A DNA stretch of 64,000 nucleotides, from the NCBI RefSeq assembly GCF_000255115.2, contig NC_018068.1:1-64000 (forward strand). Reading direction: 5' to 3'. The translations under genes and the position numbers were made by a program. The stretch comes from Desulfosporosinus acidiphilus SJ4. GTDB lineage: Bacteria; Bacillota; Desulfitobacteriia; Desulfitobacteriales; Desulfitobacteriaceae. The notes under the pieces are model-generated. The model was not told where the DNA came from and did not search any database. It saw only the letters and a program-made list of their open reading frames with translations. Positions 14,130-59,706 of this stretch are shown one piece after another (positions within the stretch are counted from its first letter, which is position 1; the number at the start of each line of letters is the position of its first letter).

Positions 14130-14159
14130 GTTTAAAATTTCACATTCTGGGGTAAATTA
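14130..14159 (+). promoter_or_regulatory. Sigma-F-like promoter of spoIIR
   Basis: GTTTA (14130-14134) matches the -35 consensus GYWTA. After 15 nt, GGGTAAATTA (14150-14159) matches GGNRANAHTW in all but one position. spoIIR is a forespore sigma-F gene in B. subtilis, so the match is in the expected place; the usual spacer is 16 nt. Confidence 0.5.
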
Positions 14160-24099: not shown

Positions 24100-24194
24100 G
24101 CTCTGTCTCATTCCATTCCATTTCAATGTTGGCGGAAACTTGCGCATAATCACTTACTTACCGGAAAGAATAAGCGAATAAGGAGGAGAAACCG

Positions 24195-46684: not shown

Positions 46685-47563
46685 TTAACCATTTACATCA
46701 TCAGACTTTGTAAAATTGCAAGCCAGGGTAGGGTTTCTGGGCAGAATAACATGCTGCTCGTAAAAAATATCCCGGGATTTTAACGCTTGTTCCCAAGTTT
46801 GAAGCAGGTCGAAGCGTCTTTCCGGATGATAACCAAGCAATTTATGTTTACCGAGAGACCGGCTTACAGGGAGATTTTGACTTAAATTAATTCCCATAAG
46901 GCAATCTCCGATAATGGTTTCGGCGATCAACCGGGCATGTTTCCGGTGTTTTCTGGGGGAATGCAGTCTTTGATGGGGAATCGATGTGGCTACTTTTATG
47001 ACAAGATCTAATTTTTTCGCCCAAAACAAGGAAAGCGGGGGAATTGCAATTGCTTCGATGGGGATGTTAGATAATGCCTTTTTCGAAAGGGCATGGGGTC
47101 CGTGGGTTGGAGTGGCAAGACCAAGGCTTTTAAACAGATCTAGTTCGCGATTAAGCTTTGCCCGGAATTTCAGGACAAGATTTGCAAGCTTCTGACGACT
47201 CGTTATATAGGGGTAACAATTTGTTAATGCAACATCTACTCCTGAGTCTACTGTGGTGATAAGAGAAAGCAGGTTTTGATAAATATCACCGGACATATCG
47301 CCATCGACAAAAAGGACTCCATCAACGTCTAAAGAGCGGGCGTAAAGTGCACCTGCCGCTCGGGGGATGTCAATGCCTAAAGGATCTGTAAAATATAGCA
47401 TATGGATACGTTGATCAGGAATAGAACGAGCAAGTTCCAGGGTTTGATCTGTGCACCCGTTGAGAACCATAATAATATAATCAACGGGAAGGCGCAAAAT
47501 CGTCGTTAAAACTGCCAAAATGCTCTTCTCCTCATTTTTTGCAGGTACGATAGCTGCAAACAT
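46685..47563 (-). CDS. Glycosyltransferase family 2 protein
   Basis: A 292-aa GT-A fold enzyme beginning MFAAIVPAKNEEKSILAVL, the GT2 N-terminal nucleotide-binding motif. It continues with VLNGCTDQTLELA and the DXD-equivalent VDGDMSG. There are no membrane helices. ATG 47563 has AAAGGAGG 10 nt upstream on the minus strand; a longer reading would overlap yabG. It is one of few minus-strand genes here and is divergent from yabG. The donor and acceptor are unknown; a spore-surface or envelope role is a guess from position only. Confidence 0.8.
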   Translation of the reverse strand: MFAAIVPAKNEEKSILAVLTTILRLPVDYIIMVLNGCTDQTLELARSIPDQRIHMLYFTDPLGIDIPRAAGALYARSLDVDGVLFVDGDMSGDIYQNLLSLITTVDSGVDVALTNCYPYITSRQKLANLVLKFRAKLNRELDLFKSLGLATPTHGPHALSKKALSNIPIEAIAIPPLSLFWAKKLDLVIKVATSIPHQRLHSPRKHRKHARLIAETIIGDCLMGINLSQNLPVSRSLGKHKLLGYHPERRFDLLQTWEQALKSRDIFYEQHVILPRNPTLACNFTKSDDVNG

Positions 47564-47654
47564 CCTTGCTCCTCCTTTGGGGTTTACTATCATTAGTATA
47601 TGTCGTTTAGAGGTGTGCGACATAAGATATAGCGAAAGGGAAGGAGGTAAGTTC

Positions 47655-48491
47655 ATGTATCATGCCGGAGATATTGTAGCAAGAATCTCACATCAACAGG
47701 ACATTTATTTTTATATCGTGAAAGTAACTGATGAAAATCAAGGCGAGCGTATGGCAATAATTAAAGGACTTAATTTAAGGCTGCTGGCCGACGCTCCGTT
47801 GTCAGATCTTGTGACCAAGAGTCCAACTGAAGTTATGAACTATGAACGAGAAGATAATAAAATGATCTATAAAAAGTTACACAAGCTTACGAGCCAGAGG
47901 AAGTCTGAGCACGATGATGCAAAGGAATATTTTGAAATTCCGGGTCGAGTTCTCCAACTGGATGGGGATCAAGACTATTTAAATCAATGTATCAGAACCT
48001 ATCGACAAATGGGAATAGAAGCTAAGGGAATTTGTAAAAGTGAGATTGAGCAGCCAAAAGTTATTCGTAAGGTTCTGGAAGAAAATCCAACAGACATTTT
48101 AGTATTGACAGGTCATGACGGGTTTCTTCGGGGAAAGAAGGACTTTCATAGCTTGGACAGTTATCGAAGTTCACGGTATTTTGTGGAATCAGTCTTTGAG
48201 GCCCGACGATTTCAGCCTAACCGGGATGGACTGGTAATTTTTGCCGGGGCTTGTCAATCCAACTATGAGGCTATTCTGGAAGCAGGAGCGAATTTTGCCT
48301 CATCTCCGAAACGTATGCTTATTCATGCCTTTGATCCGGTGTTTATTGTGGAGCGAATCGCTTTTACGCCAATGGACCAAATTGTCTCAGTAAAAGATAT
48401 TTTAATGCATACGATTACAGGGACAGATGGGGTCGGCGGGATAGAGACACGAGGCCAAATGAGGCGAGGTTACCCGAGGAGCCCTTATTAA
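47655..48491 (+). CDS. yabG: Sporulation-specific protease YabG
   Basis: Cysteine protease that processes spore coat proteins and prepro-SleC in clostridia. The 278-aa protein has the PF05582 pattern: MYHAGDIVARISHQQDIYF, a central GRVLQLDGDQDYL, ILVLTGHDGF, FAGACQSNYEAI (likely catalytic His and Cys) and TPMDQIVSVKDILMHTITGTDGVGG. AAGGAGGT lies 7 nt before ATG 47655. CATAAGATA at 47621-47629 fits the sigma-K -10 pattern CATANNNTA, but no clear -35 AC was placed. It is normally expressed late in the mother cell. Confidence 0.92.
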   Translation: MYHAGDIVARISHQQDIYFYIVKVTDENQGERMAIIKGLNLRLLADAPLSDLVTKSPTEVMNYEREDNKMIYKKLHKLTSQRKSEHDDAKEYFEIPGRVLQLDGDQDYLNQCIRTYRQMGIEAKGICKSEIEQPKVIRKVLEENPTDILVLTGHDGFLRGKKDFHSLDSYRSSRYFVESVFEARRFQPNRDGLVIFAGACQSNYEAILEAGANFASSPKRMLIHAFDPVFIVERIAFTPMDQIVSVKDILMHTITGTDGVGGIETRGQMRRGYPRSPY

Positions 48492-48613: not shown

Positions 48614-48949
48614 CTATGATTGTATTTTGACGGGTGTACCGATTTCGACATATTGGTAGAGGAGTTCGGCGTCGTGGTTATGCATACGGATACAGCCTAG
48701 AGATACAGCCTGACCAATGCTGGCAGGATTGTTCGTGCCGTGAATTCCATAACTCGGTAGAGAAAGCCCCATCCAACGGCTGCCGAAAACACCTCCGGGA
48801 TACATTGCTTTTGTGGCGATGTAGTAAAAACCATGGGGTGTGGGAGTTGAACTTTTGCCCACAGCAATGGGAAAACGATTGATTCGAATGTTGTCTTCGA
48901 AGAGTTCCAGCTGACGGCGGGCGGTGTGAATGACTATAGAACTGGGCAT
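48614..48949 (-). CDS. L,D-transpeptidase (YkuD domain)
   Basis: A 111-aa protein consisting of a bare YkuD catalytic domain with no signal peptide, membrane helix or LysM. The active-site signature is complete: IHGTNNPASIGQAVSLGCIRM, with catalytic Cys in GCIR and the His upstream. Such enzymes form 3-3 crosslinks in peptidoglycan; the lack of an export signal resembles B. subtilis spore-associated YkuD. AAAGGAGG lies 10 nt upstream of ATG 48949. It is convergent with yabG and divergent from cphB. Confidence 0.88.
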   Translation of the reverse strand: MPSSIVIHTARRQLELFEDNIRINRFPIAVGKSSTPTPHGFYYIATKAMYPGGVFGSRWMGLSLPSYGIHGTNNPASIGQAVSLGCIRMHNHDAELLYQYVEIGTPVKIQS

Positions 48950-49070
48950 GGCTTTAACCTCCTTTCTTTCGCTTAAAGGGTATATCTCATGGTATGTAAG
49001 GGATTCTTGAATGTTCGTTGCATAAATAAACCCACTTTAGGCGGAAAATAAAAGGACTGGAGGGATACAT

Positions 49071-49871
49071 TTGGCTGAACATGTGGAAGGAAGGCTGTTA
49101 ATTATTGGTGGTGCCGAAGATAAAAAAGGGGATTGCATCATTCTAAAGCGTTTTGTACAAGAAGCTGGTGGAAAGGAGAGCAGAATAACGGTTTTAACAG
49201 CTGCGACTGAACTCCCTCGTCAAGTGGGAAACGAGTATCATTCCTTGTTTCTTGAATTAGGGGCGCAGGAGGTTCAGGTACTTGACGTTTCTGATCGCTT
49301 ACAGGCTAATAGGAGAGAGATTGGAAAGGAGTTTGAAAACTCGACGGGAGTTTTTTTTACGGGTGGAGATCAATTAAGAATAACCGGCTTGTTAGGCGGG
49401 ACTACCTTAGGGCGAACACTTCAACAATTGTACGAACGTGGGGTCATTATTGCAGGTACCAGTGCAGGGGCTTCTGTAATGTCAGACACAATGATTGTGG
49501 GCGGCGAAGCGGGAACTGCAAAAAAAGACTCGTTAACAATGGCTCCAGGGCTCGGCTTTTTGCGTTCTGTAGTAATTGATCAGCATTTCGCCCAAAGGGG
49601 CCGGATAGGGAGGCTTTTATCGGCTATTTCTCATAATCCGTATGTTCTGGGAGTTGGCATCGATGAGGATACAGCGATTTTAGTACAAGCCGATGCCAGT
49701 TTTTTAGTGGTGGGCAGTAATACTGTAACAGTAGTGGATGCATCCTCTTCGACTACGACGAATGTTTCAGAAACTACCCAAGGGCAGTCCCTGGTATTAA
49801 GTCCCGTTTTGATGCATGTTCTATCAGATGGTTATGGTTTTGATTTAAAACGAAGGGAATCTTTACTTTAG
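49071..49871 (+). CDS. cphB: Cyanophycinase
   Basis: Serine-type exopeptidase that releases beta-Asp-Arg dipeptides from cyanophycin. The 266-aa protein begins GRLLIIGGAEDKKGD and has FFTGGDQLRI, the nucleophile elbow IIAGTSAGASVMSD and ISHNPYVLGVGIDEDTA, as in CphB and the related peptidase E group (S51). The start is TTG 49071 with GGAGGG 6 nt upstream. The cphA gene follows after 81 nt, so synthesis and breakdown of the polymer are encoded together. Confidence 0.93.
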   Translation: MAEHVEGRLLIIGGAEDKKGDCIILKRFVQEAGGKESRITVLTAATELPRQVGNEYHSLFLELGAQEVQVLDVSDRLQANRREIGKEFENSTGVFFTGGDQLRITGLLGGTTLGRTLQQLYERGVIIAGTSAGASVMSDTMIVGGEAGTAKKDSLTMAPGLGFLRSVVIDQHFAQRGRIGRLLSAISHNPYVLGVGIDEDTAILVQADASFLVVGSNTVTVVDASSSTTTNVSETTQGQSLVLSPVLMHVLSDGYGFDLKRRESLL

Positions 49872-49952
49872 AAGGTTTAAGGAATACCAAACGTAAAAAA
49901 GGTTAAAACTATCGTAGTATGATCCATGTTATGAAGGGAGAACAACAACATA

Positions 49953-52601
49953 ATGGAGATAAGAGAAATCCAAGCGATCGAAGGGGCAAATGTATATTGT
50001 CATAGGCCGATTATTCGAGCGATTGTGGATCTCCAAGAATGGACGGAACGATTCAGCAATACATTAGGCGATTTTTCGTCCCGTCTCATCCAAACCTTGC
50101 CATCCTTAAGTGAGCATTATTGTTCCAGGGGTAAGCCAGGCGGTTTTTTAGAACGCTTGCAAGAAGGAACATTGATTGGTCACGTCATTGAACATGTGAC
50201 AATTGAACTGTTGACACAAGCAGGACAAATCGTTAAATATGGCAAAACGATGGCTATCCTTGAAGAACCGGGTTGTTATGAAATTATTTTTAACTATGAG
50301 TCTAAGGAGGGAGCTATAGAAGCCTTTCGCCAAGGCTTTGCCTTAGTGAAAACCCTCTTAGAAAAGGGAACCTATAATGTAGCAGGGGCGATCTGTAAAA
50401 TTCAAAGCGTGATGGAGGACCATAAACTTGGAGTCTCAACGCAAATGATCGTAAATGCTTGCCTTGAGCGAGGGATTCCCGTATGTCGTTTAAATGGCGG
50501 CAGTTTGCTCCAATTGGGTTACGGCCGCAACCAACGGCGGATTCAAGCCACTGTCACTGGTGAAACTTCAAGCATAGGAGTAGATATCGCCTGTGATAAA
50601 GAACTAACTAAGAAGATCCTCAGTGAAGGAGGAATTCCGGTTCCTTGGGGTTATATCGTAAACACGGAAGAAGAAGCTGTACAAGCTTTCCTCGAAATGA
50701 ATGCTCCAGTGGTAATTAAGCCATTACGGGGCAATCAAGGGAAAGGAGTTACCTTACAGTTATCAAGCATTAGTGAAGTAAAATCTGCGTTTAAGGTCGC
50801 TCAAACTTATGGGGAATGGGTAGTCATCGAAGAATATATTTCGGGTCAGCATTATCGCTTGCTGGTCGTTGGGGATCGTTTGATAGCTGCATCCCAAAGA
50901 ATACCGGCTCATGTGGTAGGTGACGGAGTATCAACCATTGCTGAGTTAGTAGATAAGATAAACTGTGATCCGGAGCGTGGAGATGATCATGAAAAAGCCT
51001 TAACGAAAATCAAGATAGATCCCGTGGTACTATTAACTCTTTCCCAAAAACATATGACCATATCCTCCATTCCGCCTTTAGGAGAGACGGTGTATCTGCG
51101 GGATAGTGCTAATCTCAGCACCGGAGGCATAGCCTTGGATGTGACGGACCGGGTTCATCCCGATAATAAAGAGTTAGTGGTATATGCAGCAAAATTAATT
51201 GGGCTGGATGTAGCAGGAGTGGACTTGGTCATAGAAAATATTGAAGAATCCTATCGGAAGAAAAACGGACAAATTATCGAAGTTAATGCCGCACCGGGTA
51301 TACGAATGCATCATTTCCCAAGTATCGGCAAAGCCCGGGACGTGGGAAAGGCTATTCTTGAGCAAATTATGCCTTCCGGAAACGGAAGGATTCCCATAAT
51401 AGCCGTTACTGGAACAAATGGCAAAACGACTACAACGCGTATGATCAGCAAAATGCTGATTGATCAGCAGCTTAAAGTAGGAATGACCTCAACAGACGGC
51501 ATTTATTTCAATCAAAAGTTGTGGATAAAAGGGGACATGACAGGACCGGAAAGCGCCAAAATTGTCCTGAGGCATCCTGACATTCAGGCAGCAGTTTTAG
51601 AGACTGCCCGGGGAGGAATCCTAAGGGCCGGTTTAGGATATGACTATGCAGATATAGCAGTCATAACGAACGTGACAACAGACCATCTGGGTCAATATGG
51701 AATTGAAACCATTGAAGATATTGCACATGTCAAGAGTTTAATTGCGGAGGTGGTCAAGCCTCACAGCTATGTGATTTTGAACGCTGATGACCCCCAAGTT
51801 GTTGCTATGGCGAAACGTACCTCGGGACGAGTCATTTTATTCAGCACAGAGAAAGATAATTTACATGTTCGGAAGCATTTGGGGTTAGGTGGTACGGCTG
51901 TTTTCGTCTTACGCAATATGATTGTACTATGTCAAGGTTCGCAAAGCTCCAGAATCTGTTCAGTGAAACAGCTTCCGGTAACCTGGGGTGGCAGGGCCAA
52001 ACATAACATCCAAAACGCTTTAGCGGCTGTTGCAGCCGGATGGGCATTGGGATTAACCGCCTCAGCTATAAGAAATTCTCTGAAAGAATTTTCTTCAGAT
52101 ACTAATTATAATCGTGGTCGTTTAAATCTCTATGAGTTGAATGGTGTGCGAGTGGTCGTAGATTACGGCCATAATGCTGCAGGAATTCAAGAAGTGATTA
52201 ATACCTTGAGACAGTCAAACTGCAGTTCCCTGGTAGGTTGTATCACGGTTCCGGGGGATCGCCCTGACGAGTTGGTACGTGAAGTTGGCAGAGTAGCTGC
52301 CCTAGGTTTTAATCGGCTTGTGATTCGGGAAGATAAAGATTTACGTGGAAGAAAACCGGGAGAAATTGCTCAGCTTCTTTATGACGAAGCTGTCCGTTGC
52401 GGAATAGATAAAAATAAGATCATGGTTGTTCTTCCGGAGATTGAAGCATTTCGCCAAGGCTTAGATGCTTGTAAGCCCGGAGAAACTTTTGTCATGTTCT
52501 TCGAACATCTTGAACCCATAGAAGAGGAAATTCAACGGAGGTTGAAACTGCAAGCAGAACGCAAAGACCTTACACACCACGAATTGGCAGTGGGTGGCTG
52601 A
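49953..52601 (+). CDS. cphA: Cyanophycin synthetase
   Basis: Makes the nitrogen store cyanophycin (poly-Asp with Arg side chains) from Asp, Arg and ATP. The 882-aa protein has an N-terminal domain (about 1-160), an ATP-grasp domain (VVIKPLRGNQGKGVTLQ, VDLVIEN..IEVNAAPGIRMHHFP) and a Mur-ligase-like domain with P-loop VTGTNGKTTTTRM (about 485-498) and VVDYGHNAAG. This is the CphA1 domain layout, full length. GAAGGGAG precedes the ATG. Confidence 0.96.
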   Translation: MEIREIQAIEGANVYCHRPIIRAIVDLQEWTERFSNTLGDFSSRLIQTLPSLSEHYCSRGKPGGFLERLQEGTLIGHVIEHVTIELLTQAGQIVKYGKTMAILEEPGCYEIIFNYESKEGAIEAFRQGFALVKTLLEKGTYNVAGAICKIQSVMEDHKLGVSTQMIVNACLERGIPVCRLNGGSLLQLGYGRNQRRIQATVTGETSSIGVDIACDKELTKKILSEGGIPVPWGYIVNTEEEAVQAFLEMNAPVVIKPLRGNQGKGVTLQLSSISEVKSAFKVAQTYGEWVVIEEYISGQHYRLLVVGDRLIAASQRIPAHVVGDGVSTIAELVDKINCDPERGDDHEKALTKIKIDPVVLLTLSQKHMTISSIPPLGETVYLRDSANLSTGGIALDVTDRVHPDNKELVVYAAKLIGLDVAGVDLVIENIEESYRKKNGQIIEVNAAPGIRMHHFPSIGKARDVGKAILEQIMPSGNGRIPIIAVTGTNGKTTTTRMISKMLIDQQLKVGMTSTDGIYFNQKLWIKGDMTGPESAKIVLRHPDIQAAVLETARGGILRAGLGYDYADIAVITNVTTDHLGQYGIETIEDIAHVKSLIAEVVKPHSYVILNADDPQVVAMAKRTSGRVILFSTEKDNLHVRKHLGLGGTAVFVLRNMIVLCQGSQSSRICSVKQLPVTWGGRAKHNIQNALAAVAAGWALGLTASAIRNSLKEFSSDTNYNRGRLNLYELNGVRVVVDYGHNAAGIQEVINTLRQSNCSSLVGCITVPGDRPDELVREVGRVAALGFNRLVIREDKDLRGRKPGEIAQLLYDEAVRCGIDKNKIMVVLPEIEAFRQGLDACKPGETFVMFFEHLEPIEEEIQRRLKLQAERKDLTHHELAVGG

Positions 52602-52664: not shown

Positions 52665-52787
52665 ATTGCCCGAAAGGGATGGCCGAGTGTTTCTTAATTT
52701 AATTTTCTTGAAGAGTGCTGGAATCCTACGTAAATATATGTATAATAAAAGGAAATGCATCCCTAATGTTCGGAGATGGTGAGACAA

Positions 52788-53654
52788 ATGAAACAATCCT
52801 TCGTTACAACGTTCGCTCATGCAAAGATAAATTTGGCCTTAGCGGTATTAGGAATCAGGGATGACGGATATCATGAACTTCAAAGTGTGATGCAGTCTAT
52901 TGACTTACATGACGTAGTGAGGGTACGGCGTGCCGGTGAGAAAGTGACCTGCCACTGCGGAGAGTTAAGCGGCAGCGGGAATATTGCCCACATAGCGGCT
53001 GAGTTGTTTTTGCAAGAACTTGGCTTGTCAGAAGGAGTAGAAATTCACATTGAGAAGCATATCCCAATTCAGGCCGGATTGGCAGGCGGGAGCAGCGATG
53101 CTGCGGCTACCCTTCGCTTATTAAATAAGCTGTTTGATAATCCCTTAACAAAAAAAACGTTGTTAGAACTCGCTGGGAAGTGTGGCGCTGATGTGGCATT
53201 TTGCCTTGGAGGCGGAACTATGTGGGCTGCGGGGCGTGGGGAAGAACTTGATTTTTTACCGAAAGCCCCTTGCTTGGACTTGGTCTTAGTTAAGCCGAGA
53301 GCAGGAGTCAATACACGGGAAGCTTATCAAAGGTTCGACAGGGATGGAAGGAGCGGGTTTCTCGTAAGAGCGGATTGGGAAAACGCTTTAAGGGAATCTT
53401 CGCCGCAGCAGATAGCGGCCCTGCTATATAATGATTTAGAGATTGCCTCGATTCCTCTGGTTCCGGAAATATCTGATCTTAAGCAGCAACTGTTGGCCGA
53501 GAAGTGCTATGGGGCTCTAATGTCAGGCAGCGGTTCCTGTGTCTTTGGGATTGCCCAAAGTGGTGAACATGCACGGCAAGTTGCTGAAAAACTGAAAAAT
53601 AGAGGTCATAAAAACGTTTGGGTGACTAAAACAGCTGATCATGAATCAATGTAA
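52788..53654 (+). CDS. ispE: 4-diphosphocytidyl-2-C-methyl-D-erythritol kinase
   Basis: GHMP kinase of the MEP isoprenoid pathway. The 288-aa protein has AHAKINLALAVLGIRDDGYHEL at the N-terminus, the ATP loop PIQAGLAGGSSDAAATL, and MSGSGSCVFGI near the C-terminus. ATG 52788 (MKQSFVT) is preferred; an ATG 12 nt earlier lies too close to its GGAG. A perfect TATAAT at 52741-52746 may be the -10 of its promoter, but no good -35 is visible. Confidence 0.95.
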   Translation: MKQSFVTTFAHAKINLALAVLGIRDDGYHELQSVMQSIDLHDVVRVRRAGEKVTCHCGELSGSGNIAHIAAELFLQELGLSEGVEIHIEKHIPIQAGLAGGSSDAAATLRLLNKLFDNPLTKKTLLELAGKCGADVAFCLGGGTMWAAGRGEELDFLPKAPCLDLVLVKPRAGVNTREAYQRFDRDGRSGFLVRADWENALRESSPQQIAALLYNDLEIASIPLVPEISDLKQQLLAEKCYGALMSGSGSCVFGIAQSGEHARQVAEKLKNRGHKNVWVTKTADHESM

Positions 53655-59477: not shown

Positions 59478-59507
59478 GTATAACCTTTCGCATTAGGGGT
59501 AATTCTA
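59478..59507 (+). promoter_or_regulatory. Sigma-F-like promoter of fin
   Basis: GTATA (59478-59482) fits GYWTA fully. After 15 nt, GGTAATTCTA (59498-59507) fits GGNRANAHTW in all but one position. The spacer equals that of the spoIIR site. Confidence 0.5.
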
Positions 59508-59529: not shown

Positions 59530-59706
59530 ATGAGAGTGGTAAAAGTATGTCATACCTGCGAAAGAATTCTGGGCGAGATAGAGCTCGATGACTTGACCAG
59601 TGCAGAATCCGATTCTATAATGGATATCGTTGGAAACATCTCATATACCCTTTGCCCGAGTTGTCTGAATGAAATGGAAACGGAGTCAAGGAATGTTTTT
59701 CATTAG
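59530..59706 (+). CDS. fin: Anti-sigma-F factor Fin
   Basis: Fin (YabK, DUF2757) shuts down sigma-F to allow the switch to sigma-G in the forespore. The 58-aa protein starts MRVVKVCHTCERILGEIE and has a second pair in YTLCPSCLNEME, giving the CxxC...CxxC zinc site of the family. GGGAGGTGAT precedes ATG 59530. The gene lies exactly between pth and mfd, its conserved place. The upstream sigma-F-like site fits the known feedback logic. Confidence 0.85.
   Translation: MRVVKVCHTCERILGEIELDDLTSAESDSIMDIVGNISYTLCPSCLNEMETESRNVFH

Follow-up and report, generated by a model that had tools for sequence, protein, structure and literature searches.

Why does a spore-forming bacterium keep genes for making and breaking down cyanophycin, a polymer of arginine and aspartate, and in which cell would it use them? 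The question is raised by the start of the main contig (4.93 Mb) of Desulfosporosinus acidiphilus SJ4 (genome 4.99 Mb, three contigs), a stretch of 64,000 nucleotides (nt) that we call the window. Here the genes for cyanophycinase (cphB) and cyanophycin synthetase (cphA) lie, together with an L,D-transpeptidase gene, between the sporulation protease gene yabG and ispE. An earlier note on this DNA had placed these three genes at 48614-52601, and family searches confirm both the coordinates and the identities (Table 1). It had also proposed that the polymer is used in sporulation or germination, giving the vicinity of yabG as its reason. We find that the proposal is favoured, by forespore-type promoters at the cyanophycin genes and by the absence of cphA from genomes without spoIVA, but that the reason offered for it is weak. 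Judging from sequence, we consider it probable that cphB and cphA are forespore genes and that the polymer is made in the forespore and consumed at germination. Locus labels such as L046 are ours.

Forespore-type promoter sequences upstream of cphB and cphA

We scanned the 100 nt upstream of cphB in one locus per genus (46 genera, 28 families) and compared the scores with those of dinucleotide shuffles. The sigma-factor patterns used resemble, but do not exactly reproduce, the table in PMC3416734, in which the Bacillus subtilis consensus is GTATA / GGNAANAMTR for sigma-F and GNATA / CAWAMTA for sigma-G. The upstream regions of cphB gave z scores of 11.7 for sigma-F and 11.2 for sigma-G, beside 1.9 for sigma-E, 1.3 for sigma-K and 0.2 for sigma-A. 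Over all 71 loci the best sigma-F score averaged 14.04; the corresponding means were 10.20 for shuffles and 10.80 for the opposite strand. Positive controls in the same scan were sigma-K at yabG (z 8.3, 16 genera) and sigma-A at glmU (6.0) and ispE (4.4). The sigma-F pattern scored 0.6 at ispE, -0.5 at purR, 1.1 at yabG, -0.1 at the transpeptidase gene, -3.5 at spoVG and 3.5 at glmU.

An unsupervised motif search of the cphB upstream regions from the 46 genera returned.G.aTA-N15-Gg.aA...ta (second base T, C or A), which agrees with the sigma-F consensus that PMC3416734 gives for B. subtilis and reaches at least 9 bits, in-sample, in 39 of the genera. The same kind of search at yabG gave a sigma-K-like -10 box, CATA..aTa. 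When the 28 families were divided into training and test halves four times, the matrix learned on one half scored the held-out half above shuffles with z 6.6, 6.2, 2.5 and 7.4. Within Desulfosporosinus a site of at least 9 bits was present in 10 of 12 loci, lying 143 and 126 nt from the start in L011 and L017, respectively. Reading the cphB upstream region by eye with the Desulfosporosinus alignment had given no clear promoter; that alignment is out of register at the longer leaders.

A second forespore-type site is predicted in the gap between cphB and cphA. There, GAATA-N14/15-G..AAACTA or a close variant was found in all 13 Desulfosporosinus and family loci scanned, and as a set the cphB-cphA gaps scored z 7.3 with the matrix derived from cphB. 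Consensus scanning upstream of cphA reached only z 3.2 for sigma-F and 3.7 for sigma-G. The unsupervised search returned what appears to be the 3' coding end of cphB and no promoter motif, so that the evidence for the cphA promoter is the score with the cphB-derived matrix together with conservation within Desulfosporosinus.

Both positions were then treated with a common scorer, a two-box matrix with a spacer of 14-16 and a site threshold of 9 bits. By this measure a cphB site is present in 35 of the 46 genera; among the 11 without one, 10 have a cphA site. Eight genera have both. A single genus, g3 (L066), has neither, so that 45 of the 46 have at least one site, as do 27 of the 28 families, and the two sites are complementary in their distribution (Fisher p 9e-5). 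Where cphA alone has a site, cphB may be under other control. From these promoters we infer forespore transcription of cphBA.

How specific is the cphB-derived matrix? The window was not in its training set (its congener L046 was). Applied upstream of gpr in 40 genomes, the matrix gave z 5.0, with 33% of regions at 9 bits or more versus 7% of shuffles; at ispE, purR, spoVG, yabG and ksgA z stayed below 1, and glmU gave 2.6. Among 48 window genes, each examined over 150 nt, the top scores belonged to a short fin-like open reading frame (ORF; 14.6), the gerA operon (14.4), cphB (13.1), spoIIR (13.0) and cphA (13.0), and the next gene scored 10.9. In B. subtilis, spoIIR, the ger operons and fin are forespore genes. 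The 150-nt limit of this ranking was set after a scan of the whole window, antisense and doubtful ORFs were removed by hand, and the fin-like ORF joined the list only once the scan had drawn attention to it; with this ORF left out, ranks 1-4 of 47 go to gerA, cphB, spoIIR and cphA.

Enzymes, iadA and distribution across the phylum

The window CphA matches residues 2-862 of TIGR02068 and contains PF18921, PF08443, PF08245 and PF02875 (N, ATP-grasp and Mur-ligase-like domains); its solved relatives are 7lg5 and 7wac. The primer-making motif of the N domain, Cx19HxxEH, is present as Cys57, His77, Glu80 and His81, and recurs in 72 of 73 aligned sequences, the exception being truncated. This motif is absent from CphA2 (PMC9262961). 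In the M domain the P-loop Lys491 of GTNGKTTT and Asp577-His578, which correspond to Asp585-His586 of Synechocystis CphA1, are invariant in all 73 sequences, two of which come from the same contig. Where Synechocystis CphA1 has His267 in its G domain, the window protein has Gln262 (window 50736-50738; position counted by hand), and glutamine is the residue there in 72 of the 73 phylum sequences. A Desulfitobacterium hafniense enzyme reportedly made polymer (Ziegler 2002), and for that reason His267 was not taken as defining the CphA1 type. The window protein is of the CphA1 type and is predicted to synthesize the Arg-Asp polymer. In CphB, whose best solved relative is 7uqv, the catalytic residues Ser131 (in GTSAGA), His172 and Glu199 are invariant in 71 of 71 sequences. 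A second, partial CphA-like protein was seen in a congener (G003:C16:96634-97845); its open frame has 753 residues and scores 529.8 bits over positions 456-861 of the profile.

Distribution was examined in an even sample of 199 genomes of the phylum, with counts uncorrected for kinship. At the thresholds used, cphA is present in 61 genomes, cphB in 65 (including all 61 with cphA), yabG in 109 and spoIVA in 173. All of the cphA genomes are spoIVA-positive: 61 of 173 as against 0 of the 26 spoIVA-negative ones (Fisher p 5e-5, uncorrected for phylogeny). In 58 of the 59 cphA loci fetched, cphB lies immediately upstream on the same strand, with match-to-match gaps of 31-261 bp; the exception, L082, is on a short contig. 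ispE follows cphA within 600 bp in 52 of these loci, in L060 by tblastn, and at 1.5 kb in L074; the stretches fetched for the remaining five do not contain it. Across 43 genera, CphA and IspE protein distances are correlated (Mantel r 0.74; best of 500 permutations 0.27), as expected if the cphB-cphA-ispE unit descends vertically. The closest relatives by CphA, at 71-87% identity, are 12 loci, all from Desulfosporosinus, and the other six loci found are at 30-46%. What sequence shows is the genes with their catalytic motifs, promoter sequences that are conserved, and an association with spoIVA-bearing genomes.

A candidate for the last degradation step in Desulfosporosinus is the isoaspartyl dipeptidase gene iadA, of which the window genome has one copy (TIGR01975, 486.6 bits), distant from the cph locus. 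Directly before its ribosome-binding site stands GAATA-N17-CATTCTA, a full match to the sigma-G pattern used, the box CATTCTA having one mismatch to the printed sigma-G -10 box CAWAMTA (PMC3416734). Of 29 Desulfosporosinus genomes, 24 have iadA, with 25 loci in all; 24 of these loci could be parsed (L127 has no parsed gene). A sigma-G type site with a score of at least 15.9 is present in 22 of the 24 parsed loci, with 12 full matches, the boxes being kept and the spacers varying; L141 and L144 showed no good sigma-G type site in the stretch scanned. Across the sample, iadA occurs in 33 of 61 cphA-positive versus 11 of 138 cphA-negative genomes. According to PMC10206079, all 179 Firmicutes genomes with CphA1 encode cyanophycinase and only 10.1% encode IadA or IaaA, and the isoaspartyl dipeptidases of CphA1-bearing Firmicutes remain in general undiscovered. 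In L126 (G000:C3:3209187-3210335, minus strand) an iadA with a sigma-G type site is divergent from a gene that by eye resembles a SpoVB-type flippase.

Neighbouring genes in the window

Table 1. Genes and predicted promoter sites in the window, with the evidence for each
Feature	Position	Strand	Evidence and remarks
Forespore-type site of spoIIR (ORF 14215)	14130-14159	+	Matrix; internal control
Forespore-type site of GerA-family germination operon (ORF 24195)	24144-24172	+	Matrix; internal control
yabG, sporulation protease	47520-48491	+	TIGR02855 330.5 bits (cut-off 270.4); PF05582 382.8 bits
YkuD-type L,D-transpeptidase, 111 residues, divergent from cphB	48614-48949	-	PF03734 81.7 bits (cut-off 23.4)
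Putative sigma-E type (mother-cell) promoter of transpeptidase	48989-49016	-	GAACATT-N13-CATACCAT
Predicted sigma-F type promoter of cphB	49020-49050	+	GCATA-N16-GCGGAAAATA; ends 20 nt before TTG start; third-highest matrix score among the 48 window genes
cphB, cyanophycinase (peptidase family S51)	49071-49871	+	TIGR02069 308.4 bits (cut-off 126.6); TTG start
Predicted second forespore-type promoter (sigma-F/G), of cphA	49882-49911	+	GAATA-N15-GTTAAAACTA
cphA, cyanophycin synthetase, CphA1 type	49953-52601	+	TIGR02068 1177.9 bits (cut-off 850)
ispE, directly 3' of cphA in conserved unit	52776-53654	+	TIGR00154 218.3 bits (cut-off 138.7)
Forespore-type site of 58-residue ORF (59530)	59478-59507	+	Matrix; best in window

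The gene order in the window is rnmV, ksgA, two others, yabG, transpeptidase, cphB, cphA, ispE, gntR, purR, spoVG, glmU, prs. Family searches identified yabG, the transpeptidase, cphB, cphA, ispE and spoVG; rnmV, ksgA, gntR, purR, glmU and prs are what we take the others to be from sequence and place. The segment from yabG to ispE is kept in all 12 Desulfosporosinus loci, to the limits of their contigs (L017 starts within the transpeptidase). The true start of the yabG ORF is uncertain, the family match beginning at 47664, and a family-2 glycosyltransferase gene on the minus strand (46685-47656) overlaps its long form; in 21 loci, of which two are the same contig, a relative of this glycosyltransferase is encoded close to yabG and opposite to it in strand.

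Conservation of the neighbours in other spore formers, which the earlier note suggested as a check, holds for ispE but not for a close yabG. Of the 46 genomes with both genes, 31 have yabG no more than 25 kb upstream of cphA and on its strand (in 11 it is on another contig, in 4 farther away), and the distance is within 3 kb in only six genomes, all of the order to which Desulfosporosinus belongs. Furthermore, yabG itself has the sigma-K type, mother-cell signal noted above, as opposed to the forespore-type promoters of cphBA, and the two are therefore predicted to be expressed in different cells. A YabG-like gene of C. difficile is likewise under sigma-K (PMC3789822). Adjacency to yabG, on which the earlier note had relied, is accordingly a poor argument for a spore role and was ruled out as one.

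The transpeptidase consists of the catalytic domain of YkuD without its N-terminal part: PF03734 is the sole domain found in its 111 residues, and the nearest solved relative, B. subtilis YkuD (1y7m), is matched over YkuD residues 55-162 (phmmer 8e-28). B. subtilis YkuD has an N-terminal LysM domain; no domain of that type was found in the window protein, whose alignment begins at YkuD residue 55. Its N-terminus (MPSSIVIHTARRQLELFEDN) shows nothing signal-peptide-like by eye, no predictor having been used, and the catalytic motif is present as IHGTN...SLGCIRMHN (His + SxGCxRM). Besides the other Desulfosporosinus, a divergent transpeptidase gene adjoins cphB in 13 of the 59 fetched loci (tblastn), from seven families: L027, L030, L033, L036-L038, L040, L042, L045-L047, L049 and L053. 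The boxes of its putative promoter are kept, with a varying spacer, in nine rows (the window and eight loci). Upstream of all 28 loci the sigma-E score averages 16.44 versus 12.48 in shuffles, in a set that is largely Desulfosporosinus; with one locus per genus (14 genera) the signal is weak (sigma-E z 1.9, sigma-K z 2.8). We take the site as suggestive only. The transpeptidase may belong to the mother cell and have its control region in common with a predicted forespore operon on the other side of the intergenic stretch.

At the corresponding place B. subtilis presumably has veg and sspF. That cphBA replaced veg was considered and ruled out, since Veg-like proteins are encoded upstream of cphB in 22 related loci. 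In other families the genes upstream of cphB fall into protein clusters of the Veg-like (these 22 loci), SipL/SPOCS-LysM (21) and CAP (12) types, one member of each having been identified by Pfam (Veg-like, PF06257). A SipL search of the window's own genome gave no match, and neither did the control queries.

The fin-like ORF (59530-59706, plus strand) encodes 58 residues with a CxxC...CPxC pattern and had no significant match in Pfam or NCBIfam. It lies between pth and mfd, which we take to be the place of fin in B. subtilis.

A store for the spore, its rivals and its relatives

The presence of a forespore-type promoter at cphB or cphA in 45 of 46 genera turns a general idea into a precise prediction of where the genes are expressed, under which sigma factor, and what becomes of the polymer at germination, and bears on why spore formers keep cyanophycin genes. 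In Desulfosporosinus, a sigma-F type promoter upstream of cphB would transcribe the cphB-cphA pair, cphA would additionally be transcribed from its own sigma-F/G type promoter, and the unlinked iadA would be transcribed from a sigma-G type promoter. Cyanophycin would be made by CphA in the forespore and enclosed there along with CphB and IadA, which would act mainly once the core is rehydrated. Arginine and aspartate would then be released to the germinating cell, as the protease GPR releases amino acids from the small acid-soluble spore proteins (SASPs). We also propose, as a possibility that we rate slightly below an even chance, that the spore cores of this large group carry cyanophycin as an ancient second amino-acid store parallel to SASP/GPR, a proposal that combines the forespore programme, use at germination, vertical descent of cphB-cphA-ispE and many losses.

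Would the same promoters be expected if the polymer were not a nutrient at all? Sporulation cyanophycin might instead be a matrix or scaffold for spore size and assembly, a role proposed for Clostridium perfringens (PMC5532821, PMC6174930), and forespore-type promoters fit that role as well as they fit a store. However, the breakdown genes, cphB and in Desulfosporosinus iadA, stand under the same kind of promoter as the synthetase, and the polymer would lie in the core and not in the coat. We favour a store over a structure because breakdown and synthesis share this kind of promoter, and we regard the structural role as rather unlikely. Cyanophycin could also store nitrogen for cells in growth generally, as it does in cyanobacteria, with the forespore promoters adding only a late pulse. 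It is a nitrogen reserve in many bacteria (PMC9262961, PMC10206079), and in Clostridium ljungdahlii granules were reported in growing cells, with breakdown tied to arginine use (PMC13241827, PMC5640608). Yet cphB shows no sigma-A signal (z 0.2) and cphA occurs in none of the 26 spoIVA-negative genomes, and such a store appears improbable to us here. Finally, cphBA may lie beside ispE and near yabG only because rearrangements are rare in this region, as a frozen gene order whose location says nothing of function. The order of ispE, gntR, purR, spoVG and glmU is also kept in many loci, and the correlation of CphA and IspE distances is as expected of vertical descent. For location this account is true, but it does not explain why cphB and cphA, and iadA far from them, have forespore-type promoters, and as an explanation of the whole it is very improbable.

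Several results weigh against assigning cyanophycin to the forespore. Unsupervised searches also gave strong motifs of other kinds, ribosome-site-like or coding, at ispE and purR, with likelihood ratios at ispE equally high, and the third of the four family splits (z 2.5) did not relearn the motif. By the common scorer 11 of the 46 genera have no cphB site, and among the 12 Desulfosporosinus loci the site is weak in L015 (5.4) and L016 (7.2). The window genome's own gpr upstream region scores only 4.2, and of ten places in the window with at least 13.0 bits, both strands counted, five are not recognisable as forespore promoters. With a limit of 200-250 nt in the ranking of window genes, serS (site within the preceding gene) and a pyruvate:ferredoxin oxidoreductase gene enter at 13.0 and 13.2, the fin-like ORF, gerA, cphB, spoIIR and cphA remaining in the top six or seven. 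A mild forespore-type signal accompanies the sigma-A signal of glmU (28 genera; z 3.5 by consensus, 2.6 by matrix), and glmU may be expressed from a promoter used in sporulation. The iadA site does not extend to the whole phylum. Of the 33 cphA-positive genomes with iadA, 25 entered this test (six were same-genus repeats, and the genus test had already covered the window genome and its congener); their 27 regions gave z 2.3 with the position weight matrix and 0.7 with the sigma-G pattern, and 12 regions from all 11 cphA-negative genomes gave 1.3 and 0.0. Moreover, 112 of the 173 spoIVA-positive genomes have no cphA, which suggests that sporulation does not need it. Lastly, synthesis and breakdown co-expressed in one cell would need a control step.

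As a general idea, that cyanophycin serves spores is already published for C. perfringens, segmented filamentous bacteria (SFB) and C. ljungdahlii. In the literature searched, mostly without subscription papers, we recognised no report of forespore control of cyanophycin genes, and within that literature the conserved forespore-type promoter of cphBA, and of iadA in Desulfosporosinus, seems to be new. To our knowledge the polymer's role in spores rests on one mutant study; Liu et al. 2016 (J Bacteriol 198:1773) reportedly used spore proteomics and a mutant in C. perfringens. That work implicated cyanophycin in spore assembly (as cited in PMC5532821, PMC13241827 and PMC6174930). The window resembles C. 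perfringens in having CphA and CphB in a spore former, with cyanophycin tied there to spore assembly, and differs in belonging to another class and in that the evidence is a conserved forespore-type promoter. In SFB, cphAB and ispE lie upstream of a ger operon, and cyanophycin was proposed as an amino-acid source for germinating spores (PMC9482736). SFB thus share with the window the cph-ispE unit and the same proposal for germination; by contrast, the window has yabG upstream of the cph unit and its gerA operon about 21 kb upstream of cphB, not adjoining it, and the part of PMC9482736 covered gives no promoter analysis. In C. ljungdahlii, cphB is among the up-regulated sporulation-related genes (PMC13241827), and cyanophycin is treated as a store in growing cells (PMC5640608). 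The cyanobacterial cphA and cphB, which serve a nitrogen reserve, encode the same two enzymes (CphA1 structures such as 7lg5) with Cx19HxxEH and the M-domain residues, whereas the window pair has predicted forespore control and Gln262 in place of His267.

The SASP/GPR system offers a likeness in working and not in descent. In both systems the store and its hydrolase would come from the forespore, with hydrolysis at germination, and gpr upstream regions score with the cphB matrix; SASPs are ribosomally made DNA-binding proteins, whereas cyanophycin is made non-ribosomally.

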